A stretch of 64,000 nucleotides of DNA from Winogradskyella alexanderae. Its GTDB lineage: Bacteria; Bacteroidota; Bacteroidia; Flavobacteriales; Flavobacteriaceae. A program made the translations under genes and the position numbers. The notes under the pieces were generated by a model. It saw nothing but the letters and a program-made list of their open reading frames with translations. It ran no database searches and was not told the DNA's origin. Below are positions 1 to 16,490 of this stretch, piece after piece; position 1 is the first letter of the stretch; each line of letters opens with the position of its first letter. Where the stretch lies: contig NZ_JAIUJR010000007.1 of NCBI RefSeq assembly GCF_020166335.1, positions 124,001-188,000 on the forward strand, in the 5' to 3' direction.

Positions 1-546
1 GCTTTCACCTAATTCTGGTTTTGTGTTTGCAGTTGCCTCAAGCTTGTCAGCAAAGTCATTTTTTGCATTTTTAGTCCAAGCATTGGCGGCAAAGTCTTCT
101 CTCCAGGCACTCATTCCCCATTTCATGCTATATACATTATCGTATCCAGCTAAATTGAGTAAGCTCGAGTAGTAAGCAGCGGATTGACCAGAATAACAAA
201 TAAGAACTATCTTTTCGAAATCTTCTGGGTTAATGGTCTCTTTAAAATAAGTTGGCAATTCTGTAGCGGGAACATTGGCTGCATTTTTAATATGACCATA
301 TTCATACCAGCTATCTGTTCTTAAATCAACAATGTGATATTTAGGATTCTTAAAGTTTTTCTTAACCTCATCTGCCATAATTATTGGCAATTCGCCTTTA
401 AGAAAGCTTGTATTTGGTTCTAGATAATTTACCAGAGTTGTAAATTCATCTACCGTGTTTGCGGCATTAACTTTTTCTTGAGCATAACTATTAAAAGCAG
501 CAAAAGAAATGGATAATGCAATTAAAATTAAAACTGATTTTTTCAT
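1..546 (-). CDS. Rhodanese-like sulfurtransferase, periplasmic, 3' end outside window
   Basis: An ATG at 546 opens a frame that stays open to base 1, giving 182 residues without a stop, so the C-terminus lies outside the window. The first 22 residues form a Sec signal peptide ending SYA-QE. A single rhodanese domain follows: HIVDLRTDSWYEYGHI is the substrate-side motif and LICYSGQSA carries the predicted active-site cysteine that receives sulfane sulfur as a persulfide. Unlike the two rhodanese-like proteins upstream in the same direction, this one has kept that cysteine. It lies 379 bases past the Crp/Fnr gene, behind two putative Crp/Fnr sites, so it probably has its own promoter. Role in sulfur relay is inferred from context. 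Confidence 0.85.
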   Translation of the reverse strand, partial: MKKSVLILIALSISFAAFNSYAQEKVNAANTVDEFTTLVNYLEPNTSFLKGELPIIMADEVKKNFKNPKYHIVDLRTDSWYEYGHIKNAANVPATELPTYFKETINPEDFEKIVLICYSGQSAAYYSSLLNLAGYDNVYSMKWGMSAWREDFAANAWTKNAKNDFADKLEATANTKPELGES

Positions 547-1618: not shown

Positions 1619-2266
1619 CTAACAACCTCCTTCTACAGGCATTTTTTTCTTCTTTTTTGGGACTACTATCTTAGGGGCTATAATTGGTTTTGAAGCAACA
1701 TATTTAGTTTTGGCAGCTGCATCTTTTGCCTTTTTCATGGCTTCTTCTTTCTTTTTTATTGATTCTTGAATAAAAGCATTCACATCTGCTAGCGCATTTT
1801 CGACCGTTACGTCTTTTGTAATCAACTTGTTCTGATAATAGCTGTTTACAACTGATAGTATTTTTATATTATCAAAACCTAATTGATACAAAACCATATA
1901 GGGTGCAATGGCTTCATTTGGGTTGTTACTATACAAGACCAAGGTTTTACCTTGTTCTTTTAAATCTGTTAATACATCTGAATTCTCATCATTCAAAATT
2001 TCAGGAGCATACATATTAATTGCATTTTCAAGATGCCCTTTATCAAAATCAAACTGGCTTCTTAGATCAATCAAAGCTTGGTTTGTCAAATTAATGTCCT
2101 TTTGCGATAATAGATAATCTGTGTTCAATATTTGAGCCAATGCATCAGTTGGCTGTGTTGTATATAAATGCTTGGGACGTTTATATGACAATAACGCAAT
2201 TATGACTACTAAAATTGTCATTACAGCTGCTATGGAAATTCGTTTGGTTTTTTCTAATTCTTTCAT
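1619..2266 (-). CDS. Membrane-anchored degenerate rhodanese with C-terminal GGC tail (copy 2)
   Basis: 215 residues. A signal anchor covers about residues 9-28 (ISIAAVMTILVVIIALLSY), putting the rest in the periplasm. Residues 50-145 have rhodanese outlines (ALIDLRSQFDFDKGHLENA), but the active-site loop reads LVLYSNNPNEA with no cysteine. A charged helix (KKKEEAMKKAKDAAAK) and a Pro/Lys linker lead to the end, PKKKKKMPVEGGC. The final residue is the only cysteine in the whole protein. The neighbour at 2288-2965 has the same plan and tail, so the two look like diverged tandem duplicates. A sulfur-carrying role for the terminal thiol is my inference; I know of no described function. Confidence 0.75.
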   Translation of the reverse strand: MKELEKTKRISIAAVMTILVVIIALLSYKRPKHLYTTQPTDALAQILNTDYLLSQKDINLTNQALIDLRSQFDFDKGHLENAINMYAPEILNDENSDVLTDLKEQGKTLVLYSNNPNEAIAPYMVLYQLGFDNIKILSVVNSYYQNKLITKDVTVENALADVNAFIQESIKKKEEAMKKAKDAAAKTKYVASKPIIAPKIVVPKKKKKMPVEGGC

Positions 2267-2287
2267 AAGAAATATATTTTTAGCTGG

Positions 2288-2965
2288 TTAACAACCTCCT
2301 TCTAAAGGCATTTTTTTCTTTTTCTTCTTTGGTACTACTTTTTTTGGAGCCTCAGGTTGTTTAGGAACATACTTTTTAACTTCAGCTTTTTGAACCACCT
2401 TTTCTGGATAAGCCACACCAAAATACATGCTGGCCGCTTTACGAAAATTGTATTTTTCAAACTCGATAGAAGCCATATTCTCTGTTGGTTTTTTTGGATT
2501 TATAATCGTGTTGTACCATTCATTCAAACCGCCTTTTAGAACATGCAAATTCTTATATCCCAATCGGTTGCATAAAATCCAGGCCTGGTCTGAATGAAAG
2601 TTGTCATTGGAGAAAAGAATCACATCAAAGGCATTTTGATTAAGATAAGGTTGTGAGTCTTCTTCTAGTACCTTACTTAATGGGATGTTGATGGCATTTG
2701 GTAAGGTGTATGTCTTAAAGCTACTTTCGTCACGAACATCAAGCAATAATAAAGAAGGATCCTGGTTTATGATTCTATCTGCAAGCTCATCCGTTGTAAT
2801 ATATCGCTCTGGACTAAAGGCATTGGCTAATAAATTCTCAGGACTGATGCCTTCTTGTTTTTCATGTTTAGGAAGCAATAACAAACCTCCGGCAAGAATC
2901 ACAAATACAACCGCCAGAATGACGTATCTGAAGGATAAAACCTTAACTAATTTTCGATTTAACAT
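2288..2965 (-). CDS. Membrane-anchored degenerate rhodanese with C-terminal GGC tail (copy 1)
   Basis: 225 residues. A signal anchor spans about residues 13-31 (YVILAVVFVILAGGLLLL). A rhodanese domain follows at about 52-155, with LLLLDVRDESSFKTYTLPNA and the closing motif LHVLKGGLNEW well conserved. The catalytic loop reads ILFSNDNFHSD, so the active-site Cys is missing. The linker is rich in Lys and Pro and ends PKKKKKKMPLEGGC. Only two cysteines exist: one buried-looking (WILCNRLGY) and the last residue. It lies 19 bases after the YeeE-like gene and 21 bases before its paralogue. The intact fold, lost catalytic residue and new terminal thiol suggest a binding or carrier protein rather than an enzyme; this is inference. 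Confidence 0.8.
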   Translation of the reverse strand: MLNRKLVKVLSFRYVILAVVFVILAGGLLLLPKHEKQEGISPENLLANAFSPERYITTDELADRIINQDPSLLLLDVRDESSFKTYTLPNAINIPLSKVLEEDSQPYLNQNAFDVILFSNDNFHSDQAWILCNRLGYKNLHVLKGGLNEWYNTIINPKKPTENMASIEFEKYNFRKAASMYFGVAYPEKVVQKAEVKKYVPKQPEAPKKVVPKKKKKKMPLEGGC

Positions 2966-2984: not shown

Positions 2985-3575
2985 TTAGTAAAACACTTTT
3001 TTAACCCGTTTGCGAATCAAATCAGAAAAGGCAAAAATAATAACTGCGGCAATAGTAAATAAGAAAATAAACCAATAAGGATCAAAATCTAACGAATCCA
3101 TTAAGGTAACGTATCCTTGAAAATATCCATTGTGAATAGGATCTAAAAGGCCATAGAGCTGTGAAAAAATAAAAATTCCAATCATAATACCAAAAACATA
3201 TACTATGGCGTCAATTTTACCTATTGCTACAGCACATAAACTTGTGCCAGGACAAAATCCAGCGGCTACAAATCCTATACCCATAATAGCTCCACCTATT
3301 ATAGCGCCCCATAGGTAGGTAGGATGTATATATAGCATACTCATATCTAAGTATCCCAGATAATCTAAGTATAGAATGCCTATTGCAGATACCAAAGCTG
3401 CTGTAAAGAACACTTTCAATACTGCAAAGTCATAACCATAAAATACACCAGCCAATTTTCTGGACGATGAGAATCCTGAGGCTTCTAATATAAACCCGAA
3501 GAAAATACCAATTACTATCGCGATGATACTATTCCACTCAAAAGGTATGATGTCGTTTGGAATTAGTGGTCCCAT
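2985..3575 (-). CDS. YeeE/YedE-family sulfur transporter, C-terminal-type half
   Basis: 196 residues with about five or six hydrophobic segments and little else. It carries GFVAAGFCPGTSLCAVAIG, the GxCPGT signature of YeeE/YedE (TsuA-like) proteins, whose conserved cysteines pass thiosulfate or a related sulfur species through the membrane. Family members such as YeeE are single chains of about 350 residues with two pseudo-symmetric halves; here the halves are separate genes, this one following the other by 15 bases. The N-terminus FGFILEASGFSSSRKLAGVFYG also fits the family. Its place between a molybdoenzyme and rhodaneses supports sulfur transport. The exact substrate is not known. Confidence 0.85.
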   Translation of the reverse strand: MGPLIPNDIIPFEWNSIIAIVIGIFFGFILEASGFSSSRKLAGVFYGYDFAVLKVFFTAALVSAIGILYLDYLGYLDMSMLYIHPTYLWGAIIGGAIMGIGFVAAGFCPGTSLCAVAIGKIDAIVYVFGIMIGIFIFSQLYGLLDPIHNGYFQGYVTLMDSLDFDPYWFIFLFTIAAVIIFAFSDLIRKRVKKVFY

Positions 3576-3590
3576 AATCTTATTCTGTTT

Positions 3591-4115
3591 TTAAATCCAA
3601 TTTTTTCTAAAAAAGTAAGCCACCAGGAACCCTGTTCCGAATATAGCCAACATTGTTATAAATCCTCCTGTAGACAGCACAGCAATACCGCTTAAAGCAG
3701 CTCCACTTGTACATCCTCTGGCTATTTGTGAACCCACACCAAATAAAACACCTCCCAAAAGGGCAAATATTAAACGTCTTCTTTTAGTAATTTTTGGTGA
3801 ATGTTGCGTACGCCAACCAATTCGTCCGGCTAATCCACCCGAAATGAAGGCGCCGATTAAAATACCAATAGTTTCAAAAACAATCCAGTTATTCATTGGA
3901 TTTTTGTCACCTTCGACAAATTTGCTGTAAAAGGCACTTTTTTTGGCGTATTCATGTGATGTTGCATCAACCATGGTAACAACGCTACTTTTCATAGCTC
4001 CACTTGCACCAAGGCCTCTACCGGTTATATAGAATGTTAATATGATTAACAATCCCAGCAGGAAACCTCCAAAATAGGGGTTCCAATAAACGTGTCTGTT
4101 TTGTTCTTTATCCAT
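3591..4115 (-). CDS. YeeE/YedE-family sulfur transporter, half with RGCTSG motif
   Basis: 174 residues with four or five membrane segments. The signature IARGCTSGAALSGIAVLSTG matches the second conserved cysteine motif of YeeE/YedE proteins. A soluble-looking loop of about 45 residues (from KSSVVTMVDATSHEY to NPMNNW) separates the first segment from the rest. Together with the gene 15 bases downstream it should form one sulfur-conducting unit, a split version of the usual fused protein. The gene starts 10 bases after the NrfD-like subunit, so translation of enzyme and channel is probably coordinated. Confidence 0.85.
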   Translation of the reverse strand: MDKEQNRHVYWNPYFGGFLLGLLIILTFYITGRGLGASGAMKSSVVTMVDATSHEYAKKSAFYSKFVEGDKNPMNNWIVFETIGILIGAFISGGLAGRIGWRTQHSPKITKRRRLIFALLGGVLFGVGSQIARGCTSGAALSGIAVLSTGGFITMLAIFGTGFLVAYFFRKNWI

Positions 4116-4125
4116 TGCTTAATCT

Positions 4126-5067
4126 TTAATAGAGATAACGTGTTATTTGACCTGCTTCAACCATGACAAATCTAAAAATCAATCCACCAATTAATACCAG
4201 TAATGCAGGAATTGCTACGGGAACTTTATAGCCTTTTATTTCAAGAGCTTCCAGAATTCCAGGAATTATCAAACCTAGAATAACCACAAACCCAAAGAAT
4301 AATACTGTGAACTCACCACCAACCAACAGGCGCATGGCTTCCAGTTGTACTTCAGACCCAGCATACATTCCCATAAGCATGTGAATGATCAATCCAAGTT
4401 CAATGATAATCAAGGCTAAGTCTACTTTTCCAAACAAATGACGTTCCTGGGCAGTCTTGGCAAGTAGAATGATGGCCGCTGCTCCTGTTGATAATCCAGA
4501 AGTCAAGAATAAAGGTCCCAAAATAGCATTATTCCAGAGAGGTCTGGCATTGAATGCTGATAACAGAATTCCGGTATACACCCCTAAAATTATCGATAAT
4601 GGAACCAATAGGTACGCCATATTCTTTCGATTCTTTTTAACGAATTGTTCGAATTTTTTCAACCATTCAAACTTTAAATCCCAAGTGGGGAACAATTCTG
4701 AGAAATAGCTGAACACCCATAAGAAAGATAACGGTGTTACGATAAGTAATACCCATGCTCCCCAAGACATAGGCGATTCTATTCTAATAGTAGTATATAA
4801 TTGCCATGAATAAAGGGGATTCTTTAAATCATAAATCAGGGCTATCAATCCAATTACCAGAGCAATAGGTGGAATTATGGATGCATATTTTACAGTTGTA
4901 GGATACTCATCTTCTTTGTTGAGAATAACGACTATCGAAGCAAACAATATAATACCTGCTGCCAAACCACCTAAAAACAAATACAATCCAATTGGCCAAT
5001 GCCAAATTTCCAATGAAGGGTCTATATTCGGAATGTCTCTTCCGCTTACGAAAATTTCTTCTTGCAT
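4126..5067 (-). CDS. NrfD/PsrC-type membrane quinone-interacting subunit
   Basis: 313 residues with about eight transmembrane helices, starting with the soluble N-terminal stretch PNIDPSLEIWHWPIGLYLFL typical of this family. NrfD/PsrC proteins exchange electrons between the menaquinone pool and a periplasmic iron-sulfur subunit. No haem-binding motif is seen, as expected for the family. It lies 10 bases after the four-cluster ferredoxin gene and completes the classical three-subunit PsrABC-type set (molybdoenzyme, ferredoxin, membrane anchor). The substrate of the complex cannot be told from this subunit. Confidence 0.9.
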   Translation of the reverse strand: MQEEIFVSGRDIPNIDPSLEIWHWPIGLYLFLGGLAAGIILFASIVVILNKEDEYPTTVKYASIIPPIALVIGLIALIYDLKNPLYSWQLYTTIRIESPMSWGAWVLLIVTPLSFLWVFSYFSELFPTWDLKFEWLKKFEQFVKKNRKNMAYLLVPLSIILGVYTGILLSAFNARPLWNNAILGPLFLTSGLSTGAAAIILLAKTAQERHLFGKVDLALIIIELGLIIHMLMGMYAGSEVQLEAMRLLVGGEFTVLFFGFVVILGLIIPGILEALEIKGYKVPVAIPALLVLIGGLIFRFVMVEAGQITRYLY

Positions 5068-5077
5068 AACTTTAATC

Positions 5078-5614
5078 TTATATTAAATAATATACTTGTG
5101 GTTTGGTTCCAGCTTCGGGAGCCAAAGTTTTATATTTTCTATTCTTCAATAATCTGGAAACTTTACTGTTTGGATTATCCAGATCGCCAAAATACATGCA
5201 GTTGGTTGGACAGACAGATACACATGCAGGTAACTGTCCTTTTTCCAATCTATGATTACAGAACGTACATTTATCTACATAGCCACCTTCAGGATGAGAA
5301 TAACGTGCATCGTAAGGACAAGACTCGATACATGCACCACAGCCAATACATTCATTTGGCGTAACCAATACGATTCCACCATCAATTATATGACTTGCGC
5401 CAGTTGGACAACATCGTACACAAGGTGCATTTTCGCAATGGTTACAGCGTTCTGATTTTAGTTCCAATACTACGTTTGGATACGAACCATCAACAGTTTC
5501 TGTTATCCAATCTCTACAATATCCAACAGGCACATCGTTTTCTGTTTGGCAAGCCACGACACAGTCGCTACAACCAACACATTTTAAGGTGTCTATAACC
5601 ATTGCATATCTCAT
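5078..5614 (-). CDS. PsrB/PhsB-like 4x[4Fe-4S] electron-transfer subunit
   Basis: 178 residues carrying 16 cysteines in the four-cluster arrangement of the DMSO-reductase family beta subunits: CVGCSDCVVACQ near the N-terminus, CNHCENAPCVRCCPTGA around residue 57, CIGCGACIESCP around residue 90, and CTFCNHRLEKGQLPACVSVC around residue 116. It has no signal peptide and would be exported together with the Tat-bearing catalytic subunit. It passes electrons between the molybdenum subunit and the NrfD-like protein. Its ATG overlaps the stop of the catalytic gene by four bases (ATGA), a sign of translational coupling. Confidence 0.93.
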   Translation of the reverse strand: MRYAMVIDTLKCVGCSDCVVACQTENDVPVGYCRDWITETVDGSYPNVVLELKSERCNHCENAPCVRCCPTGASHIIDGGIVLVTPNECIGCGACIESCPYDARYSHPEGGYVDKCTFCNHRLEKGQLPACVSVCPTNCMYFGDLDNPNSKVSRLLKNRKYKTLAPEAGTKPQVYYLI

Positions 5615-7893
5615 ATCGTTACAGTTTTATGTGGGTTTTCAGTTAAAATTTCAACAAAGTTGCCTCGCATTCCTGTTCCTCCCATAATTGGGTCTACAGC
5701 AACTTTTGTTATCATTTGTGTGTCGTTGATTCCTTTACCAAAGGCTTTGGTCAGTTTTTTATTGTCATGACCAAAACCATGAACCATATACACAGAATCC
5801 CAACGAATTCTTTCGGTAATTCGAACTTTTATAGGAAATGTTGAAGTCACCTTATCCTGATTACGCAACCAAACTTTCTGACCTGTTTTTAAATCAAGAA
5901 TTCTGGCAACTTTAGGGTTAACCCAAAGTTTGTTCTCATTCATTAGATCATTTAGATTAGGATTATTGGCAGTTCTGCTAAATGTATGCATAGGTGCTCT
6001 TCCATAATTTAATCTATAGAATCCTTGAGGTGGTTCCGGATGTTTGGTGAAGACAGGGATTGGGTCGAATCCAAGTGATTTCAATTGATTGGAATACAAT
6101 TCAATTTTTCCGCTTTCGGTAGCAAACTCATGGGTTTTACCTTCTTCAAGATATAACGAACCAGATTTACGAGGGAATTGTTTTACGCCAATCTTTTTCA
6201 TTTCTTCCAGAGATGTGCCTAGTTTATTCAATTGCCATTCAATGACTTCTTCATAATCATCAAATTTGAAATATTCACTTAAACCAAGACGTTCACCTAT
6301 TTGTTTTGCAACCCACCAACCTGGTTTGGAATCATATTTTGGTTTCACTGCTGGAATTCTGACTGCAATGGATGGTTCTCTGTTAGGTGAAGAGCGAATG
6401 TCATCGTAACGTTCTAAATATGTACATTCCGGAAGCACAATATCAGCGTAACCAGTAACGTCCATTGGCATCGTATCTAATACAACTATGAATTCGAGAT
6501 TTTCAATGGCATCCTCTAGTAATTTTTTATTAGGAATAGATTTCGTGATGTTAGTTCCAGCAATCATCATCGCCTTTACTGGATATTTTTCGTGGTTTTC
6601 TTCAGTTGGAATTGCACATTTCATTACTTCTGTAGTGATTCCCATTTGAGCCAATGGAAATTTTTTACCAATATCTTGCCAACCCCATTTTGGTTCTGGA
6701 TATTTAGGATGAGGGAATTTTGGCACTTTCAAACTCTCCTTAAAGTAGAATCCGCCTCGTCGTCCCCAGGAACCTAATAAAGCGTTCAATATTGCCATTG
6801 CTCTAGCACGTTGTGAGTCGTCTCCATACCAAGTTACATGGCGACCAGGGTGTATAATGACAGATGGAGCAGCATTTGCCATTGCTCTTGCAGTTTTTCT
6901 AATTTCTGCGGGTTTGATGGTTGTAATACCATAAGCCCATTCTGGCGTGAAGTTCAATACATGGTCTCTAAGCTGGTTAAATCCAGTACAATATTTATCT
7001 ACATATTCTTTATCATATAACTCCTCTTCAATCAACACATTCATCCAAGCCAACATTAAGGCTATATCTGTAGCTGGCTTAATTGCTAACCAATGCTGTG
7101 ATTTACTTGCTGCTGTTGAGAATCTCGGGTCAACTGTAATGATTGTTGCACCATTATCTATAGCGTCAGACATTTCCTGTACTTGTGTATTATGCATGTT
7201 CTCGCCAATATGAGAACCAATTAACACCAAACATTTTGTGTCTCTTATATCCGTAGGTTCAGGAGAACCAACCCAAGAACCATAGGTTAATGCAAAACCT
7301 GTCTCCCTTGGTCCACGACATTGTGCGTAAGCTGGTTCTGCAATGGTATCCGATCCATAAGCTTTAAAGAGATGCTCTAAATGCTTGCCAGGTGAACCAT
7401 GTTTTAATAAAGCAATAGACTCGGCACCATGAGTATCTTTAACTTGCTTAAACTTGGATGCAATTAAATCTAACGCTTCATCCCAAGATGCTTCCCTAAA
7501 GGTTTGCTCTCCATCAATAGTTGTTCTAATTAAAGGTGTTTTTAATCGGTCTTCATCGGAATACATACCAATTCCGCCTGTGCCTCTTGGACATAGTCTT
7601 CCGTTACAATGCGGATCGATATCATTACCAATGATTTTTTTGATATTTCCTTGTTCGTCTGAATGCGCCCAAGCTGCACATTTCCAAAAACATACTTCAC
7701 AGTATGTAGCCGTCTTTTTTAATTTTTTCGCGATGTTTTCAGCAACTAATTCATTTAAAATTGAATTGCCGCCAAATGCACTAATTACAGAAGATGATGC
7801 AACAGCACCGCAAAAACCAAGGGCAGATATTTTAATAAATTTTCTTCTAGATGTGACCATGTCCAATAATTTCTTCGGAAACAAATCTATCAA
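5611..7893 (-). CDS. Tat-exported molybdopterin oxidoreductase, polysulfide/thiosulfate reductase type
   Basis: 760 residues. A twin-arginine signal (SRRKFIKISALGF, residues 15-27) directs folded export; Met12 at 7860 is an equally good start. A [4Fe-4S] site follows with Cys65, Cys68, Cys72 (CEVCFWKC) and Cys101. Molybdopterin domains and a C-terminal dinucleotide-binding domain (from about 640) complete a DMSO-reductase-family alpha subunit. Cys192 in AYAQCRGPRE sits where PsrA/PhsA-type enzymes place the cysteine ligand of molybdenum. The neighbours (YeeE halves and rhodaneses) point to a sulfur substrate such as polysulfide, thiosulfate or tetrathionate, but arsenic-type relatives (ArrA/ArxA) cannot be excluded by eye. 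The reaction could run in either direction. Confidence 0.88.
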   Translation of the reverse strand: MIDLFPKKLLDMVTSRRKFIKISALGFCGAVASSSVISAFGGNSILNELVAENIAKKLKKTATYCEVCFWKCAAWAHSDEQGNIKKIIGNDIDPHCNGRLCPRGTGGIGMYSDEDRLKTPLIRTTIDGEQTFREASWDEALDLIASKFKQVKDTHGAESIALLKHGSPGKHLEHLFKAYGSDTIAEPAYAQCRGPRETGFALTYGSWVGSPEPTDIRDTKCLVLIGSHIGENMHNTQVQEMSDAIDNGATIITVDPRFSTAASKSQHWLAIKPATDIALMLAWMNVLIEEELYDKEYVDKYCTGFNQLRDHVLNFTPEWAYGITTIKPAEIRKTARAMANAAPSVIIHPGRHVTWYGDDSQRARAMAILNALLGSWGRRGGFYFKESLKVPKFPHPKYPEPKWGWQDIGKKFPLAQMGITTEVMKCAIPTEENHEKYPVKAMMIAGTNITKSIPNKKLLEDAIENLEFIVVLDTMPMDVTGYADIVLPECTYLERYDDIRSSPNREPSIAVRIPAVKPKYDSKPGWWVAKQIGERLGLSEYFKFDDYEEVIEWQLNKLGTSLEEMKKIGVKQFPRKSGSLYLEEGKTHEFATESGKIELYSNQLKSLGFDPIPVFTKHPEPPQGFYRLNYGRAPMHTFSRTANNPNLNDLMNENKLWVNPKVARILDLKTGQKVWLRNQDKVTSTFPIKVRITERIRWDSVYMVHGFGHDNKKLTKAFGKGINDTQMITKVAVDPIMGGTGMRGNFVEILTENPHKTVTI

Positions 7894-8039: not shown

Positions 8040-9935
8040 ATGAAAAAAAAAGAATATTCTATAGCCTTTTTTATCTTGATTTTTTTCGTATTTGCAGCGC
8101 TTTTTTTTGCAAGAAATGGGGCTTATTTTTTTTCTGAACCTGCATATCAAAGTACTACTGAATTCAGTCAAATAGCAGAAAAGGAATCATGCTTTCAATG
8201 TCATCAGGATACCAAGGGTTATTCAAAATATCATAATCCAGAATTTATAGGTTGCGCAGGTTGTCACTTAGGAAATATAGCTTCTAATGACAAAAATGAG
8301 GCTCATAAAGGAATGGTTTTGATTCCCGGAAACTTGTCCGACGCAAAAGAGACTTGTGGTAAATGTCATCCTAGTGAATTGTACAAAATAGAACAGTCTT
8401 TAATGACAACAAATAGTGGAATTGTCGCAGTTGACAAATTTGTTTTTGGTGAAGCGGATAGTTTAGATTATCATTATCATATTAAAGATTTGGGGTATTC
8501 GGCTTCAGATAAGCATTTAAGAGATTTATGCGCTAACTGTCATTTAGGTGCAGAAAAAATGGAATATGGTCAGATTACGCAATTAAGTCGCGGAGGTGGT
8601 TGTAATGCTTGTCACTTAAATTATTCTAACGAAGCTAAATACGATTTAGAAAGTTATTTAGCTTCCAATAAAAAGGAATTACCTCAATATCATCCTTCAA
8701 CTGATATTTTTGTGAATGACACCCATTGTTTTGGATGCCATAGTCGTTCAAGCAGAATTTCTACTAATTATATGGGCTTGCAAGAGACCTTGTTAGAAGA
8801 AAGCGACATTATTAATAAAACTGATTATAAAGTTTTACAAGATAAAAGAGTTTATAAAATCCTTGAACAAGACATACACCATACCAAAGGGATGTTGTGT
8901 ATTGATTGCCATTCGTCTCATGAAGTGATGGGTGATGGTAACACGTATGCACACGCAGAACAAGCCGTGAAATTGCAATGCTCTGATTGTCACTTCAAGG
9001 AAAAGCCTAATACGATTCCATACGATTCTTTAGATCGAGAGAGTTTGCTAGTCTTTTTGCATAGAGATTACAAGCATCATGACAAACAAATTATAGTCGC
9101 AGAAAAAGATGGTCATCCATTAGTAAATACTTTTGTGGATTCTCTTGGTAATGCCTTTTTAATTGGCAAAAAAGATGATACTCTATATAGTTTAAAACCG
9201 CAATCTGAATTTTGTTCTCGAGATAATGCGCATCAGGATGTGAGTTGTGCAACTTGCCATTCGTCTTGGACGCCAAGATGTATTGGTTGCCATAATGAAT
9301 ATGACAAAGAAGAACCGAGGGGATTTGATTTACTTGATAAAAAATATATTCGAGGACAATGGAAGGAATATGTTGCTGAGTTTTCATCGTCTTTGCCAGC
9401 CATGGGAGTTCGTGAAACTGAAGAAGGAAAACATATAGAGCCTGCAATTCCCGGAATGATAATGACCATTGATTTAAATAGTTATTCTCATAATGACGAG
9501 AACGAGAGTTTGTTATTTCACAGATTATACGCTCCAAATTCACCTCATACCACAACAACAGCAGTACGCGATTGTAAATCTTGTCACTCTAACTCAGCTA
9601 GTTTAGGCTATGGTAATGGTATCTTGGAATACAAAATAAAGAATAAAAAAGGGACTTGGATTTTCACTCCTGAATACGCATTAAACGAAAACGATAGCTT
9701 ACCAGAGGATGCATGGATTCCATTTCTAAAAGAAGTAGATAAAGCAACTGTAAGATCTACACGGCATGACTTTAGACCATTTTCAGTTAATGAACAAAAG
9801 AGACTTCTATTAGTTGGTGCTTGTTTGCAATGTCATAAAGGAAATTCTGAGGTTATGCAGAAGACTTTAAATATTGGAATAGATTCTATACTGCCAATTA
9901 TTAATAAAGCATGTATATTGCCTGAAAATTTTTAA
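8040..9935 (+). CDS. Dodecahaem c-type cytochrome, membrane-anchored
   Basis: 631 residues. A hydrophobic segment (about residues 7-24) serves as signal anchor or signal peptide. I count twelve CXXCH haem-binding motifs: CFQCH, CAGCH, CGKCH, CANCH, CNACH, CFGCH, CIDCH, CSDCH, CATCH, CIGCH, CKSCH and CLQCH, with no CXXCK, so it is not an NrfA-type nitrite reductase. A haem-free stretch of about 85 residues separates motifs 8 and 9 and another of about 90 separates 10 and 11. The gene is divergent from the molybdoenzyme operon over a control region with two putative Crp/Fnr sites, so it probably carries electrons for, or is a second enzyme of, the same pathway. I do not recognise a specific named family. 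Confidence 0.85.
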   Translation: MKKKEYSIAFFILIFFVFAALFFARNGAYFFSEPAYQSTTEFSQIAEKESCFQCHQDTKGYSKYHNPEFIGCAGCHLGNIASNDKNEAHKGMVLIPGNLSDAKETCGKCHPSELYKIEQSLMTTNSGIVAVDKFVFGEADSLDYHYHIKDLGYSASDKHLRDLCANCHLGAEKMEYGQITQLSRGGGCNACHLNYSNEAKYDLESYLASNKKELPQYHPSTDIFVNDTHCFGCHSRSSRISTNYMGLQETLLEESDIINKTDYKVLQDKRVYKILEQDIHHTKGMLCIDCHSSHEVMGDGNTYAHAEQAVKLQCSDCHFKEKPNTIPYDSLDRESLLVFLHRDYKHHDKQIIVAEKDGHPLVNTFVDSLGNAFLIGKKDDTLYSLKPQSEFCSRDNAHQDVSCATCHSSWTPRCIGCHNEYDKEEPRGFDLLDKKYIRGQWKEYVAEFSSSLPAMGVRETEEGKHIEPAIPGMIMTIDLNSYSHNDENESLLFHRLYAPNSPHTTTTAVRDCKSCHSNSASLGYGNGILEYKIKNKKGTWIFTPEYALNENDSLPEDAWIPFLKEVDKATVRSTRHDFRPFSVNEQKRLLLVGACLQCHKGNSEVMQKTLNIGIDSILPIINKACILPENF

Positions 9936-9940
9936 CCACA

Positions 9941-10948
9941 TTAGCCTCCAATAGTAATCATACTTCTGTTATTGGAATGCAATTTAGGTTCTTTTAGCTT
10001 TTCAAGCGTATCCATGCCACCACGGACTTTAAGTTTTGCTTCAACAGCTTTCTGAATTACGGATTCAATCGATTTTCCAGAACGCAATACCGATAATAAA
10101 TCACTTTCTTTGGAGGAAAACAAACAATTTTTTAATTGACCATTAGCTGTTAGGCGCAATCTATTGCACGAATCACAGAAGGGATTTGTAACCGTGCTAA
10201 TAATGGCAAAAGATCCTTTATGGCCTTTTATTTTATAGTTTTTTGAAGTGTCATTTGGGGCGTCTTGCAGACGTTCGACATTATCATCTGTGAAGACTTC
10301 ATTAACCTTATCCATTATTTCTTTGTAAGAAACCATTTTGCTAATATCCCATTTGTTACCATCAAAAGGCATAAACTCAATAAAACGAACTGAAATGGGC
10401 AGGTCTTTCGTGAAATTTATGAAGTCAATAATTTCATTATCATTGAAACCCTTCATTAAAACAGCATTTACTTTTACAGTAAAGCCTTCTTTAACCAATA
10501 GTAAAATATTATCATGGACTTTTTGAAATTCATCACGACGTGTAATCTGTTTAAATTTTTCACGGTCTAGAGAATCTAAACTCACATTAATTTTTTGAAC
10601 TCCGTTTAATTTCAGTATCTGAATAAATTTATCAATAATTACAGCATTCGAGGTAATTGACAATTCTACAGGAAGCGTTGCTAACTTTTCTAAAATAATA
10701 GGAATATCCTTTCTTATTAAGGGTTCTCCTCCTGTTAATCTAATTTTAGTAACACCGTGTTTTACAAAAGTTTTTGCAATGTCATAAATTTCCTCATAAC
10801 TCATTAAATGACTTTTTGGTGACAACTGAACACCTTCTTCTGGCATACAATAAGAACAGCGCAGATTACAACGTTCAATTAATGAAATGCGCAGGTAGGT
10901 ATGTTGTCTACCGTGTGAATCTTGTAATATATTTTTATTGTCTTGCAT
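9941..10948 (-). CDS. moaA: GTP 3',8-cyclase MoaA
   Basis: 335 residues, a radical SAM enzyme for the first step of molybdenum cofactor synthesis (GTP to 3',8-cyclo-GTP). The SAM cluster motif is CNLRCSYC near residue 28. The C-terminal cluster motif CDSCNRLRLTANGQLKNC (about 258-275) binds GTP. The protein ends in Gly-Gly, which is conserved and needed in MoaA. It is the last gene of the cofactor operon, overlaps moaCB by one base, and faces the cytochrome gene with only five bases between their stops. Confidence 0.95.
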   Translation of the reverse strand: MQDNKNILQDSHGRQHTYLRISLIERCNLRCSYCMPEEGVQLSPKSHLMSYEEIYDIAKTFVKHGVTKIRLTGGEPLIRKDIPIILEKLATLPVELSITSNAVIIDKFIQILKLNGVQKINVSLDSLDREKFKQITRRDEFQKVHDNILLLVKEGFTVKVNAVLMKGFNDNEIIDFINFTKDLPISVRFIEFMPFDGNKWDISKMVSYKEIMDKVNEVFTDDNVERLQDAPNDTSKNYKIKGHKGSFAIISTVTNPFCDSCNRLRLTANGQLKNCLFSSKESDLLSVLRSGKSIESVIQKAVEAKLKVRGGMDTLEKLKEPKLHSNNRSMITIGG

Positions 10949-11859
10949 TAATCGTGTCTTGCACCTTTTAAAATTCTAAAACTATGTAATACAGCAGGAA
11001 ATATGGCATCCATAGATTCTTTTGCTCCGTTTGTAGAGCCTGGTAAAGCTAAGACTAGAGTATCTTTTATGGTCCCAGCTACACTTCGGGACAGCATTGA
11101 AAATGGTGTGCGTTCTTGACCATAATTTCTAATAGCTTCTTCAATGCCTGGGATTCTTCTATCAAGCAAGGGTAGTAATGCTTCTGGAGTTACATCACGA
11201 CCAGAAAGTCCCGTGCCTCCCGTATAAATAATCATATCTACACCTTGTTCTTGGTAGGTTGTTACTTTTTCCTGAATAATATTAATTTCATCAGGTATTA
11301 CGATATAATCTGCAATTTTTACTTGGTAAAATTCTAGTTTATTCATTATTGCCTTACCTGCTTTATCGTCTTTGTGACCTGCAGAAATAGTATCTGAACA
11401 CACAATAACTGTTGCTGTTAGATCTTTCCTAAAGCGGTCTCTGAAGTCGGATTTCCCACCTTTTTTGTTTAAAAGTTTTATAGCCAGTATTTCAACACCT
11501 TTATCAATAGGCTTAAGCATATCATACATGTTCAATGCGACTACACTAGCGCCATGCATGGCTTCGACTTCAACACCAGTTTTATAAATGGTTTTTACTG
11601 TGAAAATGATGGTTATTTCTAATCCATTGATATCGTATTCTACACTTGTAAACTCAATAGGTAAAGGATGGCAATCTGGTAAAATATCTGGCGTACGTTT
11701 TACGCCCAATAGTCCTGCTGCCTTGCTCATAGCAAATACATTTCCCTTGGGAACCGTATCGTTTTGAATGGCAGTAATGGTTTCTAGCTTGCTAACTTTA
11801 ACAATAGCTTGAGCTACTGCAATTCGTAATGTTGTGCTTTTTTCGGTGATATCTACCAT
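10948..11859 (-). CDS. moaCB: MoaC-MoaB/MogA fusion protein
   Basis: 303 residues. The N-terminal half (about 1-155) is MoaC, cyclic pyranopterin monophosphate synthase, with KGNVFAMSKAAGLLGVKRT and LPDCHPLPI. The second half (about 160-303) is a MoaB/MogA-type molybdopterin adenylyltransferase-like domain with TGGTGLSGRDVTPEALLPLL. Fusion joins an early and a late step of cofactor synthesis in one chain; such fusions are known in Bacteroidota. The ATG at 11859 lies at the end of a tandem 15-base duplication in the short gap after moaE. Confidence 0.92.
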   Translation of the reverse strand: MVDITEKSTTLRIAVAQAIVKVSKLETITAIQNDTVPKGNVFAMSKAAGLLGVKRTPDILPDCHPLPIEFTSVEYDINGLEITIIFTVKTIYKTGVEVEAMHGASVVALNMYDMLKPIDKGVEILAIKLLNKKGGKSDFRDRFRKDLTATVIVCSDTISAGHKDDKAGKAIMNKLEFYQVKIADYIVIPDEINIIQEKVTTYQEQGVDMIIYTGGTGLSGRDVTPEALLPLLDRRIPGIEEAIRNYGQERTPFSMLSRSVAGTIKDTLVLALPGSTNGAKESMDAIFPAVLHSFRILKGARHD

Positions 11860-11888
11860 ATAAGTTCAATCATTATAAGTTCAATCAT
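11859..11888. repeat. Perfect tandem duplication of a 15-base unit
   Basis: TATAAGTTCAATCAT occurs twice, head to tail, at 11859-11873 and 11874-11888, covering the moaE-moaCB spacer and the first base of the moaCB start codon. On the minus strand each unit begins with ATG, so the pair makes an 11-codon frame whose TAG stop lies just inside moaCB. Confidence 0.9.
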
Positions 11889-11891
11889 TTT

Positions 11892-12335
11892 TTAATTGTT
11901 TTGTTTCCATTGGTGTGTGCTGTCCTCAAAAATTTCCTTACCAAAAATGGGAACATCGGCTTTAATAGCTTCAACAATGAATTCTAAAGCTTCAAAAACC
12001 ACTTTCCGTCGCGGTGAAGATACAAATACAAATAAACAGATTTCACCAACGTTTACTTTCCCTAAACTATGGTATATATGCATGCAAGTGAGTTCAAATT
12101 TTTCGAAAGCGGCTTCCCTGATTTCGTGAAATTTAGCATTAGACATTTCTTCATATGCAGTATACTCAATAGCAGAAACTGTTTTGTTGTCAATAACGTC
12201 AGCACGTACTTGACCTAAGAAAATATTGTGAGCACCAATACTTGTTTTAGTTTGATGTTTGTAAATAGAATTCCCAATGAATTCTGAGGATATAGCACCT
12301 TCTTTAAAAACGCTTTTAGGCTTTTTATCTTTCAT
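11892..12335 (-). CDS. moaE: Molybdopterin synthase catalytic subunit MoaE
   Basis: 147 residues. MoaE pairs with thiocarboxylated MoaD to insert two sulfurs into cyclic pyranopterin monophosphate. The C-terminal active-site region KADVPIFGKEIFEDSTHQW and the MoaD-docking core FLGQVRAD are both present, and FVFVSSPRRKVVFEAL matches the family. The start overlaps the end of moeB by 11 bases. Its length is normal for the family. Confidence 0.94.
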   Translation of the reverse strand: MKDKKPKSVFKEGAISSEFIGNSIYKHQTKTSIGAHNIFLGQVRADVIDNKTVSAIEYTAYEEMSNAKFHEIREAAFEKFELTCMHIYHSLGKVNVGEICLFVFVSSPRRKVVFEALEFIVEAIKADVPIFGKEIFEDSTHQWKQNN

Positions 12336-13413
12336 TTAATGAAGTTTTTTGTATGTAATTATTGATTTCTACAGCACCTTCCGTTATACTAAAGCAATTA
12401 GTAATATTATAATCAAGTAAAAGTTTGAAAGCAATTTTACTTCTTATTCCAGATTGGCAAAACAGTGCTTTTATTTTTGAATCTTCGATTTTATCCAAGT
12501 TATTCTTAATGTCACTTAATGGTATATTGGTAACTTCCAAACGTTTTACTCTTGGTTTTTCATTTAGTTCCCTAACATCAATATATTGTATGTTTTCATC
12601 ATCAATAAGGTCTTTGATAGAAATTTCTACGGGTTCTACGCCAAAATTAGACTTAGACGATTCATTTTCAAAATCCGCTACGTTATTTAAAACCGACTCA
12701 ATATTGGCTTCATTTCTGTTTATTTTTAGAGTAACGGTTTTAGATGTTAATGCGTTATAGCATAACAGGATTCCTGAAAGAACATTTCCGATATTTAGAA
12801 TAATCTTTAGGACTTCATTTGCTTGTATGCTGCCAATAATGCCTGGAAGGACACCTAAAACACCTATTTCTGAGCAGTTAGGATACGCACCTTTTTTTGG
12901 TGCTTTAGGAAATAAACACCGGTAACTAGGTCCGTTTTTATAATTGAAAACAGACACCTGACCTTCAAATTTATAAATACCACCAAAAACAAGAGGTTTA
13001 TTTAAAATGACACAGGCGTCATTGACTAAATATCGTGTTTCAAAATTATCTGTACCATCAATAATGATGTCGTAAGTGCTAAACAAGTTCAGCGCATTCT
13101 TGTACGTTAATTTTTGAGGGTAGGCATTGATTGTGATTTCATCGTTTAAATCTTGCAGACGTTGTTTCGCAGCCATGGCTTTATTAACTCCTAACGAAGT
13201 TGTTCCATATAACACTTGACGCTGAAGATTAGAAATATCTACAGTATCAAAATCAATAATACCAATCGTTCCGACTCCTGCAGCTGCTAAATATTGTAGA
13301 ACAGGGCAACCTAATCCACCAGCTCCAACAACTAAAACCTTAGCTTTAGCAAGCTTATTTTGACCTACTTGTCCAATTTCTGAAAGTACGATATGTCTAC
13401 TGTATCTGCTCAT
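12325..13413 (-). CDS. moeB: MoeB/ThiF-type adenylyltransferase fused to rhodanese
   Basis: 362 residues. Residues 1-240 are a ThiF/MoeB E1-like domain with the nucleotide motif VVGAGGLGCPVLQYLAAAG and the Arg-rich RYSRHIVLSEIGQVGQ start. It activates the C-terminal Gly-Gly of MoaD by adenylation. Residues 265-360 form a rhodanese domain with an intact loop ALFCQSGIRSK, so this protein can also deliver the sulfur, as in eukaryotic MOCS3. Many MoeB proteins carry paired CxxC zinc motifs; only part of that pattern (CLFPKAPKKGAYPNC) is seen here. It sits between moaD and moaE, its two functional partners. Confidence 0.9.
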   Translation of the reverse strand: MSRYSRHIVLSEIGQVGQNKLAKAKVLVVGAGGLGCPVLQYLAAAGVGTIGIIDFDTVDISNLQRQVLYGTTSLGVNKAMAAKQRLQDLNDEITINAYPQKLTYKNALNLFSTYDIIIDGTDNFETRYLVNDACVILNKPLVFGGIYKFEGQVSVFNYKNGPSYRCLFPKAPKKGAYPNCSEIGVLGVLPGIIGSIQANEVLKIILNIGNVLSGILLCYNALTSKTVTLKINRNEANIESVLNNVADFENESSKSNFGVEPVEISIKDLIDDENIQYIDVRELNEKPRVKRLEVTNIPLSDIKNNLDKIEDSKIKALFCQSGIRSKIAFKLLLDYNITNCFSITEGAVEINNYIQKTSLNER

Positions 13414-13418
13414 ATTAT

Positions 13419-13652
13419 TTAACCACCTGCAAAAGGTGGCAATAGTGCGATTTCTTGTCCTGTTAATTCTGTTTTAAGTGCTACCAACTCTTGATTTTGA
13501 GCTACTTGAAAATCTTTAGTTTTTAGCAAAGTATATTTTGAATATAGCGATTCCATTAGTTCCGAAATCGTATGACCTGAAAACTCTAACACCTCTTTTT
13601 CCTTGTTGGTGATTTCAGCTATTTGGCCAAAATATCTAACTGTTATACGCAT
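13419..13652 (-). CDS. moaD: Molybdopterin synthase sulfur-carrier subunit MoaD
   Basis: 77 residues with a ubiquitin-like fold signature, MRITVRYFGQIAEIT at the start and the C-terminal tail PPFAGG. The final glycine is adenylated by MoeB and converted to the thiocarboxylate used by MoaE. The gene overlaps the end of mobA by 17 bases and ends six bases before moeB starts, in line with tight operon organisation. Confidence 0.94.
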   Translation of the reverse strand: MRITVRYFGQIAEITNKEKEVLEFSGHTISELMESLYSKYTLLKTKDFQVAQNQELVALKTELTGQEIALLPPFAGG

Positions 13653-14220
13653 TTTCTATGGCTTTAAGGTCCTTTATTGTATTTACATTAGTTGTGCAGA
13701 GTTCCTGCTCTTTTTTTAATTCTATATTTTTATAATTACAGCTTTCAATAGCAACGCGAAGGCGTCTTTCGTTTGCGATTAAGAGTTTGTTGAAACAATC
13801 TTTTACTTGTCTTTTGTAAAATGCGATTAGGGGCATAGACTTACCCTTGCTTTCAACTTGAATAATTTCTGAAGTATCATCAATGGCATAAATTAGCATT
13901 TCTAATATCTCGGGAGTAATTAAAGGTATATCACAACTTAAAACCAAATTATTGTCATTGGATGAAGCTTCTAATCCTGAACATATACCAGCTACTGGGC
14001 CAGAATTTTTTGTAATGTCATTGATGCGCCTTAAGCTAAATACATCATAATTTGGATTGTCTGAAACAATAATTATTTCAGAGACAAAAGGTTTTAGAGC
14101 ATCAATACTATATTGTATCATTGGTTTTCCATTTAGTAAGAGAAGGCCTTTGTCTTCTCCCACACGCGAACTTTTACCACCTGCTAAAATAATACCTGTT
14201 ATGGTCGTTTTGTTTATCAT
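13636..14220 (-). CDS. mobA: Molybdenum cofactor guanylyltransferase MobA
   Basis: 194 residues. The GTP-binding signature ILAGGKSSRVGEDKGLLLL opens the protein, followed by VLSCDIPLITPEI, the metal-binding aspartate motif of the NTP-transferase fold. MobA attaches GMP to Mo-molybdopterin to form the bis-MGD cofactor that DMSO-reductase-family enzymes such as the one at 5611-7893 require. Its presence therefore ties this operon to that enzyme class. It begins directly next to the stop of the transporter gene. Confidence 0.93.
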   Translation of the reverse strand: MINKTTITGIILAGGKSSRVGEDKGLLLLNGKPMIQYSIDALKPFVSEIIIVSDNPNYDVFSLRRINDITKNSGPVAGICSGLEASSNDNNLVLSCDIPLITPEILEMLIYAIDDTSEIIQVESKGKSMPLIAFYKRQVKDCFNKLLIANERRLRVAIESCNYKNIELKKEQELCTTNVNTIKDLKAIENAYNS

Positions 14221-14961
14221 TTATGTGAAAAATAATTTAAAAGAAGCAATAGTCAATACAAAAGCTAAAATGTACCGAAGTCTTCGGTTGTTTATTTTTC
14301 TACTTCCGTAGAAACCGCCTAAAACACCTCCAAATAGTGCAATAGCAACTAATAAAAAGGATTCTTTTTCAAGTGTTACACCCACACTGAGTTGGCCGAT
14401 TAAACCTGAGGCTGAATTTACCCAAATAAATAGGGCAGAAACTGCAGCGGCTTCTTTCATCTTGCCCCAATGAAACAACAAAATAACAGGCGTTAATATT
14501 ATGCCGCCACCAATACCTATAAGTCCTGAGAAAAATCCGATAATAGCACCAATAATAAATCCTTGCCATATTTTTACACGTTTTATAGTGTCACTTTCTT
14601 TTCCAAGAAGATTTAAAATTTTCAAAATGGCAAATACGAGCAAAATCGCTAGTGTTTTTTTGTAAAGTGATGCGTCAAGTTCAATTCTGCCTCCAAGCAT
14701 TGAAAATGGGATAGAGGTAATGGCAAATACAAAAAATAGTTTTTTATTAAAGTAACCAGCTTTAAAGTAGTAGTAGAATGAAATTCCTGCTACGAATAAG
14801 TTAAGCAGTAGGGCAGTAGGTTTCATAGTTTCTGGAGCAAAGGAAAATAATGCCATTAGTGCTAAATAACCACTCGCACCACCATGACCAACACTAGAGT
14901 ATAAGAATGATACTATAGGTAGTAAGCACAAAAAAATAAGTATGTTTTCGTTTTGTAACAT
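14221..14961 (-). CDS. TauE/SafE (TSUP) family membrane transporter
   Basis: About 246 residues with seven or eight membrane segments. LYSSVGHGGASGYLALMAL and GFFSGLIGIGGGIILTPVIL are the two Gly-rich repeats of the TauE/SafE family, which moves sulfite, sulfonates or related anions. I chose ATG 14961, two bases after the modE-like stop, over an upstream ATG at 14985 that would overlap that gene. Its place inside a cofactor operon is of interest: molybdate is an oxyanion and no ModABC system is visible, so it could move molybdate, or it could handle sulfite from the sulfur island. Neither is shown. Confidence 0.85.
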   Translation of the reverse strand: MLQNENILIFLCLLPIVSFLYSSVGHGGASGYLALMALFSFAPETMKPTALLLNLFVAGISFYYYFKAGYFNKKLFFVFAITSIPFSMLGGRIELDASLYKKTLAILLVFAILKILNLLGKESDTIKRVKIWQGFIIGAIIGFFSGLIGIGGGIILTPVILLFHWGKMKEAAAVSALFIWVNSASGLIGQLSVGVTLEKESFLLVAIALFGGVLGGFYGSRKINNRRLRYILAFVLTIASFKLFFT

Positions 14962-14962
14962 A

Positions 14963-15307
14963 CTATAACAGCTTAAATTTTTCAATTTGTTGGTCTAAAA
15001 ACGCCCAACAATTTTTATTAATTTCATCAAAAGTAAAAATCAGAGATTTGCCATAATCGGTAAGTTCTGTACCGCCACCTCCTTTACCTCCTATATGATT
15101 AGTTGTAACAGGTCTTTTAGCAGATTTGTTTACGGCATCTAACAGTGACCAAGCTTTTTTGTAGGAAAGATTTAAGGATTTAGCCGCTTTTGATAGAGAA
15201 CCTGTTTCGCCAATAGCCTTTAATAGCTTAACGCGACCCTCTCCTAAAAAAACACTTTTATCGGATTCTATCCAAATTCTACTTTTAATTTTGTAGCTCA
15301 TAATCAA
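14963..15307 (-). CDS. ModE-like winged-helix regulator without molybdate-binding domain
   Basis: 114 residues, corresponding to the N-terminal DNA-binding half of ModE: LGEGRVKLLKAIGETGSLSK and AAKSLNLSYKKAWSLLDAVN, then the Gly-rich wing HIGGKGGGGTELTDYGKSL. ModE of E. coli is about 260 residues with two C-terminal Mop domains for molybdate; these are absent, so it cannot sense molybdate by that domain. It lies five bases after moeA and probably controls the operon it belongs to. Stand-alone domains of this kind are common beside molybdenum genes. Confidence 0.88.
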   Translation of the reverse strand: MIMSYKIKSRIWIESDKSVFLGEGRVKLLKAIGETGSLSKAAKSLNLSYKKAWSLLDAVNKSAKRPVTTNHIGGKGGGGTELTDYGKSLIFTFDEINKNCWAFLDQQIEKFKLL

Positions 15308-15311
15308 TAGT

Positions 15312-16490
15312 TTAGGACGGCAATAAAATAACTTCTACCATATCATTGACAGAAATATTGGAAACGGTTTCTGGTAAAAAAACTAATGCATTTGAAAGCG
15401 CAAATGTTTGAAGCATTGATGAATTCTGACCTTCTAAAATTTGTACTTCATTATCCTTATATATTGCTTTCAAGAACTGAGGGCGGTCACCACTTTTTTT
15501 AAAGTTTGATTGCGACTTTGCGAATATCTTTGGTAATTCTAATGCATTCCGATTCATCATTTTCTGTAAGGCGATGTATACATAGCAATAGAAACAACTA
15601 AGCGTAGCTGCAGGATTTCCTGGTAATGCAAAAATGATGGTATCGTCTTTCTTTCCAAAGAATAATGGTTTTCCTGGCTTTTGTTTAACCTTATAAAAGA
15701 TTACTTCTGTCTTAAGTTCTTCGAGCGATTTTCCAACAAAATCATAATCTCCAACTGAAATCCCTCCAGTTATGATAACTAAGTCGTTGAGGTTTATAAC
15801 GCTTTGAAGTTTAGAAGTTGTATTCTCAAAATTATCATCAATGGTATGCAGAGTCACATCGTAAAAATCTAAATTACCTAAAGCGCTTTGAAGCATTACA
15901 GAATTACTTTCATATATCTTTCCGAAAGGCAATGGTTTACCTGCTTTTATCAACTCGTTGCCAGTGGTTACAATTGCAATAGAGGGCTGTTTATAAACTA
16001 AAACGTCTGTAATACCTAAGGATGTTAAATAGCCAATAGCTGCAGGTGTGAGTTTTGTCCCTTGTTTTAATGCAATCTCACCTTTTTTAACTTGTTCTCC
16101 TAGAGGTCTAATATTGTGTTCAGAAGGAATATTAGACTCAATGACAATTTTGTTACCGCTGACTTTAACTTTCTCTTGCATTACCACTGCATTTGCACTA
16201 TCAGGAACAGGTGCTCCCGTGAATATTCTCACAGCCTCTCCTTCTTTCAAATACAATTTATGATTATCACCTGCCTTCATTTCTCCTTGAAGATAATATT
16301 CGAGCTTTTCATGCACGTTTAAAGCATAACCATCCATAGCAGATTGCCTAAATGGTGGCATATTAATAGGCGAGTGAATATCTTGAGACAATATAAAACC
16401 ACTGGATTTCTCGACTTTTAAAACAGCTTCCTTCATTAAAGGTTTGCAAGTAGTTTTTATAGCTGATATGGCTTGGTGTATGGAAATCAT
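15312..16490 (-). CDS. moeA: Molybdopterin molybdenumtransferase MoeA
   Basis: 392 residues. MoeA inserts molybdenum into adenylated molybdopterin. Family motifs are in order: MPPFRQSAMDGYAL (about 44-57), IFTGAPVPDSANAVVMQE (about 88), TGGISVGDYDFVGKSL (about 245), KPGKPLFFGKK and FALPGNPAATLSCFYCYV (about 290). It is the first gene of a nine-gene operon. A TAnnTTTG element 16 bases upstream suggests a very short leader, which leaves no room for a molybdenum cofactor riboswitch. Confidence 0.95.
   Translation of the reverse strand: MISIHQAISAIKTTCKPLMKEAVLKVEKSSGFILSQDIHSPINMPPFRQSAMDGYALNVHEKLEYYLQGEMKAGDNHKLYLKEGEAVRIFTGAPVPDSANAVVMQEKVKVSGNKIVIESNIPSEHNIRPLGEQVKKGEIALKQGTKLTPAAIGYLTSLGITDVLVYKQPSIAIVTTGNELIKAGKPLPFGKIYESNSVMLQSALGNLDFYDVTLHTIDDNFENTTSKLQSVINLNDLVIITGGISVGDYDFVGKSLEELKTEVIFYKVKQKPGKPLFFGKKDDTIIFALPGNPAATLSCFYCYVYIALQKMMNRNALELPKIFAKSQSNFKKSGDRPQFLKAIYKDNEVQILEGQNSSMLQTFALSNALVFLPETVSNISVNDMVEVILLPS

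Follow-up and report, generated by a model that had tools for sequence, protein, structure and literature searches.

Membrane-Anchored Pseudo-Rhodaneses with a Cysteine-Terminated Basic Tail as Putative Sulfur Carriers beside the Split YeeE Transporter PmpAB

Gene Organization of the Locus

The window analysed here is a 64,000-nucleotide stretch of the Winogradskyella alexanderae genome (contig NZ_JAIUJR010000007.1, positions 124,001 to 188,000). It carries a minus-strand operon in the order PsrA, PsrB, NrfD, PmpA, PmpB, two rhodanese-like proteins designated R2 and R1, a Crp-type regulator and a secreted two-domain rhodanese; next come a lipoprotein with two rhodanese domains, a porin like ExtI and another Crp regulator. 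The last four genes, from the secreted rhodanese to the second Crp, are completed or situated beyond the window. The features are as follows.

1..546, minus strand: 5' part of the secreted two-domain rhodanese (complete protein, 327 aa), first domain with an intact CYSGQS loop
926..1576, minus strand: Crp/Fnr-type regulator (profile match), in the same neighbourhood in several relatives
1619..2266, minus strand: R1, membrane-anchored pseudo-rhodanese of 215 aa; its sole cysteine is the last residue, 215
1622..1657, minus strand: R1 tail, KKKKKMPVEGGC; the EGGC part occupies 1622-1633
2288..2965, minus strand: R2, membrane-anchored pseudo-rhodanese of 225 aa; two cysteines, C132 and C225
2291..2329, minus strand: R2 tail, KKKKKKMPLEGGC, ending in EGGC
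2985..3575, minus strand: PmpB-like half (N-terminal) of a split YeeE transporter; Pfam Sulf_transp 1.9e-15, profile positions 7-149
3591..4115, minus strand: PmpA-like half (C-terminal) of the split YeeE transporter; Pfam Sulf_transp 3.4e-24, profile positions 176-309
4126..5067, minus strand: NrfD/PsrC-type membrane subunit; Pfam NrfD 2.4e-48
5078..5614, minus strand: PsrB/NrfC-type 4Fe-4S subunit; Pfam Fer4_11, NCBIfam NrfC/TtrB-like under cut-offs
5611..7893, minus strand: PsrA/PhsA-like molybdopterin oxidoreductase; Pfam Molybdopterin 3.8e-41, Tat-type signal SRRKFIK
8040..9935, plus strand: ExtM-like multihaem cytochrome c, divergently transcribed; NCBIfam ExtM 240 bits, cut-off 800

The complex encoded next to the transporter has the Psr/Phs set, with molybdopterin A, 4Fe-4S B and NrfD-type C subunits and a Tat signal, and the best NCBIfam match of PsrA is PhsA (466 bits, under the cut-off of 694). 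According to PMC11582611, PmpB and PmpA are the N- and C-terminal halves of YeeE. The cysteine of GFCPGTS in PmpB was conserved in 110/110 sequences and that of RGCTSG in PmpA in 111/111. The reading frame at 1-546 had been taken for an intact rhodanese when only the sequence was read. Its first domain does have the cysteine; the frame, truncated where the window ends, in reality belongs to a 327-aa two-domain secreted protein in which only the first domain has a loop cysteine.

In nearly all flavobacterial loci of sufficient length, the multihaem cytochrome gene and PsrA point away from each other. To the left of the window (L158, 9417-11528) lie the ExtI-like porin and the rhodanese lipoprotein, which together with the ExtM-like cytochrome (8040-9935) flank the operon. 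MoaA-, MoaC-, MoaE-, MoeB-, MobA- and MoeA-like reading frames, as read from their translations, adjoin the molybdoenzyme operon at 9941-16490.

Sequence and Predicted Structure of R1 and R2

R1 and R2 matched the Pfam Rhodanese profile (PF00581) with 45.3 and 56.9 bits, respectively, against a curated cut-off of 22.2. When aligned with LICYSGQS, the loop of the active rhodanese encoded in the operon, both R1 (LYSNNPNEA) and R2 (LFSNDNFHSD) show a serine in place of the catalytic cysteine, and both C-termini follow the form K(5-6)MP(V/L)EGGC. Judged by their sequences, the two proteins are members of the rhodanese fold that do not qualify as catalytic rhodaneses. The sequence-only reading had described just this pair, tandem anchored rhodaneses without the catalytic cysteine and with a shared lysine-rich EGGC end, and had named the last residue of R1 as its only cysteine; both reading frames, the profile matches and the alignment confirm the description. 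It had not given the strand, which is minus for both genes. The second cysteine of R2, C132, is kept in 43 of 59 orthologues and is thus not conserved.

The AlphaFold models of both proteins consist of an N-terminal membrane helix and a confident rhodanese core, and their top Foldseek matches among solved folds were rhodaneses. The R1 model had a mean pLDDT of 85.5, with values above 90 in the domain and below 60 in the tail, which is predicted to be disordered over about 29 residues (187-215). For R2 the mean was 83.1, with a core above 90 and a disordered tail of about 42 residues (184-225). Charge-based prediction gave an N-in/C-out topology for R2 in 59/59 cases, which would place its rhodanese domain in the periplasm; by the same approach, the topology of R1 was ambiguous.

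Conservation of the C-Terminal Tail in Flavobacteriaceae

Scanning one Flavobacteriaceae genome per species yielded 57 loci. The EGGC terminus was present in 55/55 complete R1 and 59/59 R2 proteins (114 tails), so the terminal cysteine is invariant in the orthologues; L039 and L042 (frameshifted) and L058 (cut by a contig end) were left out of the complete R1 count. Across EGGC and the stop, two codons were used for Glu, four for each Gly, two for Cys and three for the stop, without a single amino-acid change. Such constancy of the residues under varying synonymous codons indicates purifying selection. Nor is the tail a product of chance, since none of 345 further ORFs (250 aa or longer) in the flavobacterial loci ends in cysteine and the EGGC tail is absent from the other 11 rhodanese proteins of the W. 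alexanderae genome. The order PsrA-PsrB-NrfD-PmpA-PmpB-R2-R1 was preserved at every flavobacterial locus where the contig reaches far enough. The tail thus recurs beside YeeE and Psr genes, as had been predicted.

Apparent variation of the terminal cysteine was rejected after inspection of L039, L042 and L151, the last from the phylum-wide set. All three are frameshifts, with (E)GGC or EGC (KKKKREGC in L151) encoded in another frame, and represent either sequencing errors or genuine slippage. The frameshift of L039 sits inside the A-rich lysine tract.

Tail Homogenization between R1 and R2

In the phylogenetic tree, R1 and R2 formed two separate groups, both fully supported. Their tails were nevertheless more alike in the same genome (93% over 12 residues) than in different genomes (75%), and 0 of 5000 permutations gave a value as high. 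Synonymous codon identity in the tail was 0.69 within genomes versus 0.56 between genomes, while the gene-body control gave 0.59 versus 0.61, which rules out shared codon bias as the source of the likeness. Exact DNA matches were as long as 44 nt. On this sequence evidence, the tail DNA is partly homogenized within genomes, a case of concerted evolution.

Consequently, the presence of two similar tails in one genome is not in itself an argument for function, and it is the between-species data that show selection. The earlier conclusion that the tail is under selection therefore stands on the invariance of EGGC across species with varying codons; the original argument, a shared tail on diverged domains, does not hold. 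It could be supposed that gene conversion is the whole reason for the likeness and that the cysteine is functionless. The homogenized tail DNA agrees with this, but the cysteine end stays invariant across species and families despite synonymous divergence, also in lineages with a single copy, and we assign the explanation next to no probability.

Tailed Rhodaneses across Bacteroidota and Beyond

With R2 as query, a search across 395 genomes of the phylum recovered relatives in many families; the query includes the tail and may favour tailed matches, and many distant alignments end before the tail. Two forms of these relatives occur beside PmpA/PmpB: anchored proteins with one domain, and fusions in which the rhodanese follows the C-terminus of PmpB. 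Cysteine was the last or second-last residue in all 57 complete distinct PmpB-linked or fused rhodaneses, whose endings include KKKKEGC, AAGGC, KRVLGGC, KKIQGGC, LVRMGC, GGCG and, once, RFQC. The protein with the RFQC end (L075) was considered as a loss of the terminal cysteine and rejected as such, the cysteine still being last. All complete PmpB-linked proteins except one end in (G)GC or GGCG. In 46 of the 57, the cysteine of the terminal region is the only one from the rhodanese domain onward, outside the membrane.

The active-loop cysteine was lost in 169 of 171 proteins and replaced by S, G, A, D or N. Among 22 diverse members, the only invariant positions were D76, R78 and the terminal G-C, and Rhodanese was the only Pfam match in all 22 scanned. 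In 26 distinct proteins, PmpB carries the module as a fusion, tail included. PmpB is followed in these fusions by a basic loop, one additional helix and then the rhodanese, an arrangement that would put the domain in the periplasm.

An unbiased DNA search for KK(x4)GGC-stop in the 395 genomes returned 28 places, and all 10 at real ORF ends belonged to PmpAB-linked rhodaneses. The idea of a general C-terminal motif shared by many proteins was rejected, as in real ORFs the pattern is confined to this group.

The mean net charge of the last 20 residues was +6 in Flavobacteriaceae and +4 elsewhere. Together with the membrane anchoring, this strongly positive charge could mean that the lysine-rich cysteine tail binds some other target, such as the membrane surface, a metal, haem or a non-sulfur ligand. 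However, the basic composition varies (KKKK, KRVLGGC, LVRMGC, VEVEEGGC) while (G)GC stays constant, the tail offers a single thiol and no histidine, and all contexts contain sulfur or chalcogen genes. Binding of this kind is very improbable.

A plasmid of Gemmatirosa (Gemmatimonadota) encodes PmpA, PmpB and a rhodanese ending in RLRRRGC, so the design crosses phyla. It was the single Gemmatimonadota case among the plasmid records, the rest being short, weak matches to other rhodaneses. The tail, which might have been a peculiarity of one genome, is thus common to Flavobacteriaceae and is found in the wider phylum and on one Gemmatimonadota plasmid. None of the conditions that the sequence-only reading had named for its own refutation turned out to hold.

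Partner Enzymes and Genomic Contexts

PmpAB together with a tailed rhodanese occurred in three contexts. The first is PsrABC-like (Flavobacteriaceae, genome G017, family f27 and others). The second, with the fused type of rhodanese, contains an octahaem cytochrome of the tetrathionate reductase family (TIGR04315, 580 bits versus a cut-off of 375) and a b561-type cytochrome. The third, in family f38, contains a two-domain sulfurtransferase and a SufS-like class-V aminotransferase, and Gemmatirosa is arranged alike.

At L159 (7139-11125), L160 and L162, the octahaem cytochrome, the b561-type cytochrome, PmpA and a PmpB-rhodanese fusion with a GGC end stand together, apparently as an undescribed respiratory unit. 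At L163 (5965-10026) and L124, the order is two-domain sulfurtransferase, PmpA, PmpB, rhodanese with an (M/R)GC end and SufS-like aminotransferase. Shared by f38 and Gemmatirosa, this setting is of another, perhaps assimilatory, kind.

PmpAB is the commonest constant neighbour of the tailed rhodaneses; their partner enzymes are of at least three kinds, the molybdoenzyme among them. In G017, a two-domain rhodanese whose loops, CHSGQS and CYTGQV, are catalytically intact (L153, 7031-8149) shares the tail KRKKKAVSGGCG with its two neighbours. Present in identical form on this third, intact rhodanese, the tail acts like a module that can be transferred. Genome G456, which is 99% complete, has no Sulf_transp protein and has kept PsrABC, R2 and R1. 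Its tails end in VKKVKVEVEEGGC, so that in this one genome the cysteine end persists with a reduced poly-Lys run. YeeE was therefore rejected as an obligatory partner, and hand-off to PmpAB cannot be the sole role of the tail. The sequence-only reading had imagined an arm linking the molybdoenzyme, the rhodanese and YeeE. The place of the transporter in that scheme agrees with PmpAB as the commonest neighbour; a fixed triad does not agree with the several partner enzymes or with G456.

These contexts also bear on the possibility that no sulfur is carried and that the terminal cysteine forms a structural or regulatory disulfide (between R1 and R2, or with PmpAB or PsrA), or that the tail gates or plugs PmpAB. 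The likeness beyond chance between the tails of R1 and R2 within a genome, the single exposed thiol per protein and the fusion to PmpB all fit such a role. However, most lineages have one tailed protein and the fusions have one tail per PmpB, so an R1-R2 heterodimer is not general; a Gly-flanked cysteine at the extreme terminus of a disordered arm of about 40 residues is atypical of structural disulfides; and G456 retains its tails without PmpAB. We consider a disulfide or gate unlikely.

The arm could instead carry selenium or tellurium species, with the operon serving oxyanion reduction and PmpAB transporting selenium. The ext cluster of Geobacter is a selenite/tellurite cluster (PMC5877670), and since parts of the operon resemble it, the chalcogen could be selenium. 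An ExtH rhodanese, an ExtI porin and Ext cytochromes with a Rieske protein and cytochrome b characterize that cluster; no Rieske protein or cytochrome b of its type was seen in the operon. Among NCBIfam profiles, ExtM comes closest to the divergent cytochrome (240 bits, cut-off 800) and ExtI to the distal porin (46 bits, cut-off 150), both under the cut-offs, and PmpB has a weak match to the putative selenium transporter profile TIGR04112. On the other hand, PsrA is closest to the thiosulfate reductase PhsA, the ext likeness is limited to two parts, and the other contexts are sulfur-related (octahaem tetrathionate-reductase family, two-domain sulfurtransferase, SufS-like desulfurase). A selenium or tellurium cargo is, in our judgement, distinctly unlikely.

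Proposed Function and Comparison with Known Systems

We regard R1, R2 and their kin as probable sulfur carriers built on a pseudo-rhodanese, in which the arm ferries sulfane sulfur between PmpAB and an enzyme of the periplasm. On the periplasmic side, a sulfur-converting enzyme would load the terminal thiol with sulfane sulfur, as a persulfide or thiosulfonate. The PsrABC-like complex, jointly with the secreted two-domain rhodanese, would do so in the window; elsewhere the task would fall to the octahaem cytochrome or the two-domain sulfurtransferase. The flexible arm would then swing the sulfur between the converting enzyme and PmpAB, and the cysteines within the membrane part of this channel would pass it across. 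The rhodanese domain may act as a scaffold for docking or for binding anions, with the lysines perhaps steering the arm toward anionic sulfur species, acidic partner surfaces or the membrane. We infer the sulfur on the arm, its loading, the sulfur species and the direction of transfer from the features described above.

The preference for a carrier draws on the conservation and gene linkage described above, on the SoxY-like anatomy of the tail and on the transfer proposed from SoxY to the SoxT channel. In SoxY, the cysteine of a C-terminal GGCGG arm binds the sulfur substrate (PMC6067878), and PMC11582611 proposes transfer from this cysteine along channel cysteines of SoxT. The tailed rhodaneses likewise bear a Gly-flanked cysteine at the very end of a flexible C-terminal arm, predicted to be periplasmic, and some lineages end in GGCG; SoxY systems, too, can include a YeeE-family channel (SoxT). 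These SoxY-like endings and the tailed fusions to a YeeE half strengthen the swinging-arm idea first raised for this locus. Unlike SoxY, the proteins described here have a rhodanese fold, one membrane anchor and a poly-basic arm, with no SoxZ partner or Sox context seen. The SoxY domain (PF13501) had no match in R1, R2 or the 22 scanned members, and a SoxY search of the W. alexanderae genome gave no match, as was also the case in the control genomes, so that this negative carries no weight.

LbpA, a lipoate-binding sulfur-oxidation protein of the sHdr pathway, shares a conserved, often Gly-neighboured cysteine near the C-terminus (PMC6067878). It differs in its GcvH-like fold with lipoate and in its cytoplasmic pathway. 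PspE and Wolinella Sud are periplasmic rhodaneses, and Sud binds polysulfide for Psr. The R1/R2-type proteins resemble them in fold, predicted location and the adjoining Psr-type reductase; however, PspE and Sud use the active-loop cysteine, whereas R1/R2-type proteins have lost it and have their sole conserved thiol on the tail. As in TsuA/TsuB (YeeE/YeeD) and SoxT/TusA, a YeeE-family channel is accompanied by an adjacently encoded, Cys-bearing putative sulfur carrier. TsuB and TusA are cytoplasmic proteins of the TusA fold, whereas R2 is a predicted periplasmic protein of the rhodanese fold and the channel is split into PmpA and PmpB; no TusA-type Pfam match was found in R1, R2 or the 22 members.

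A second PmpAB locus of W. alexanderae (contig C4; L187, 498-3684) served as a same-genome control. It has the order Crp, PmpA, PmpB and an MBL/double-rhodanese protein of the persulfide dioxygenase type, and so, like the operon, combines split YeeE halves with a protein containing rhodanese domains and a regulator of the Crp type. It differs in that the rhodaneses are part of an MBL-fold protein, which lacks the terminal GGC tail.

Whether these proteins form a widespread carrier class is, to us, evenly balanced. In such a class, the reactive cysteine would have left the active-site loop for the end of a basic swinging arm. Enzyme, arm and PmpAB, to which the carrier is tethered or fused, would relay sulfane sulfur across the membrane for respiration, in Bacteroidota and also outside this phylum, as a functional counterpart of SoxYZ-SoxT on an unrelated scaffold. 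We found no description of tailed pseudo-rhodaneses in the open-licence literature, although an earlier account is possible, and the accessible parts of papers on YeeE/SoxT, cable bacteria and disproportionation do not describe such a tail. The proposal bears on how YeeE/PmpAB-type channels get sulfur from the periplasmic side. With the putative carrier encoded beside PmpAB and often fused to it, the hand-off is directly testable with one or two proteins. If the proposal is true, a large group of seemingly inactive rhodaneses would gain a function, and the peptide swinging-arm carrier would have evolved on at least one further fold.

R1 has one additional conserved segment, a motif that R2 lacks. 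Its predicted N-terminus, MKELEKTK (window 2234-2266, minus strand), was invariant in 31/31 aligned orthologues that are themselves 33-60% identical to R1, and is possibly a docking or targeting signal.
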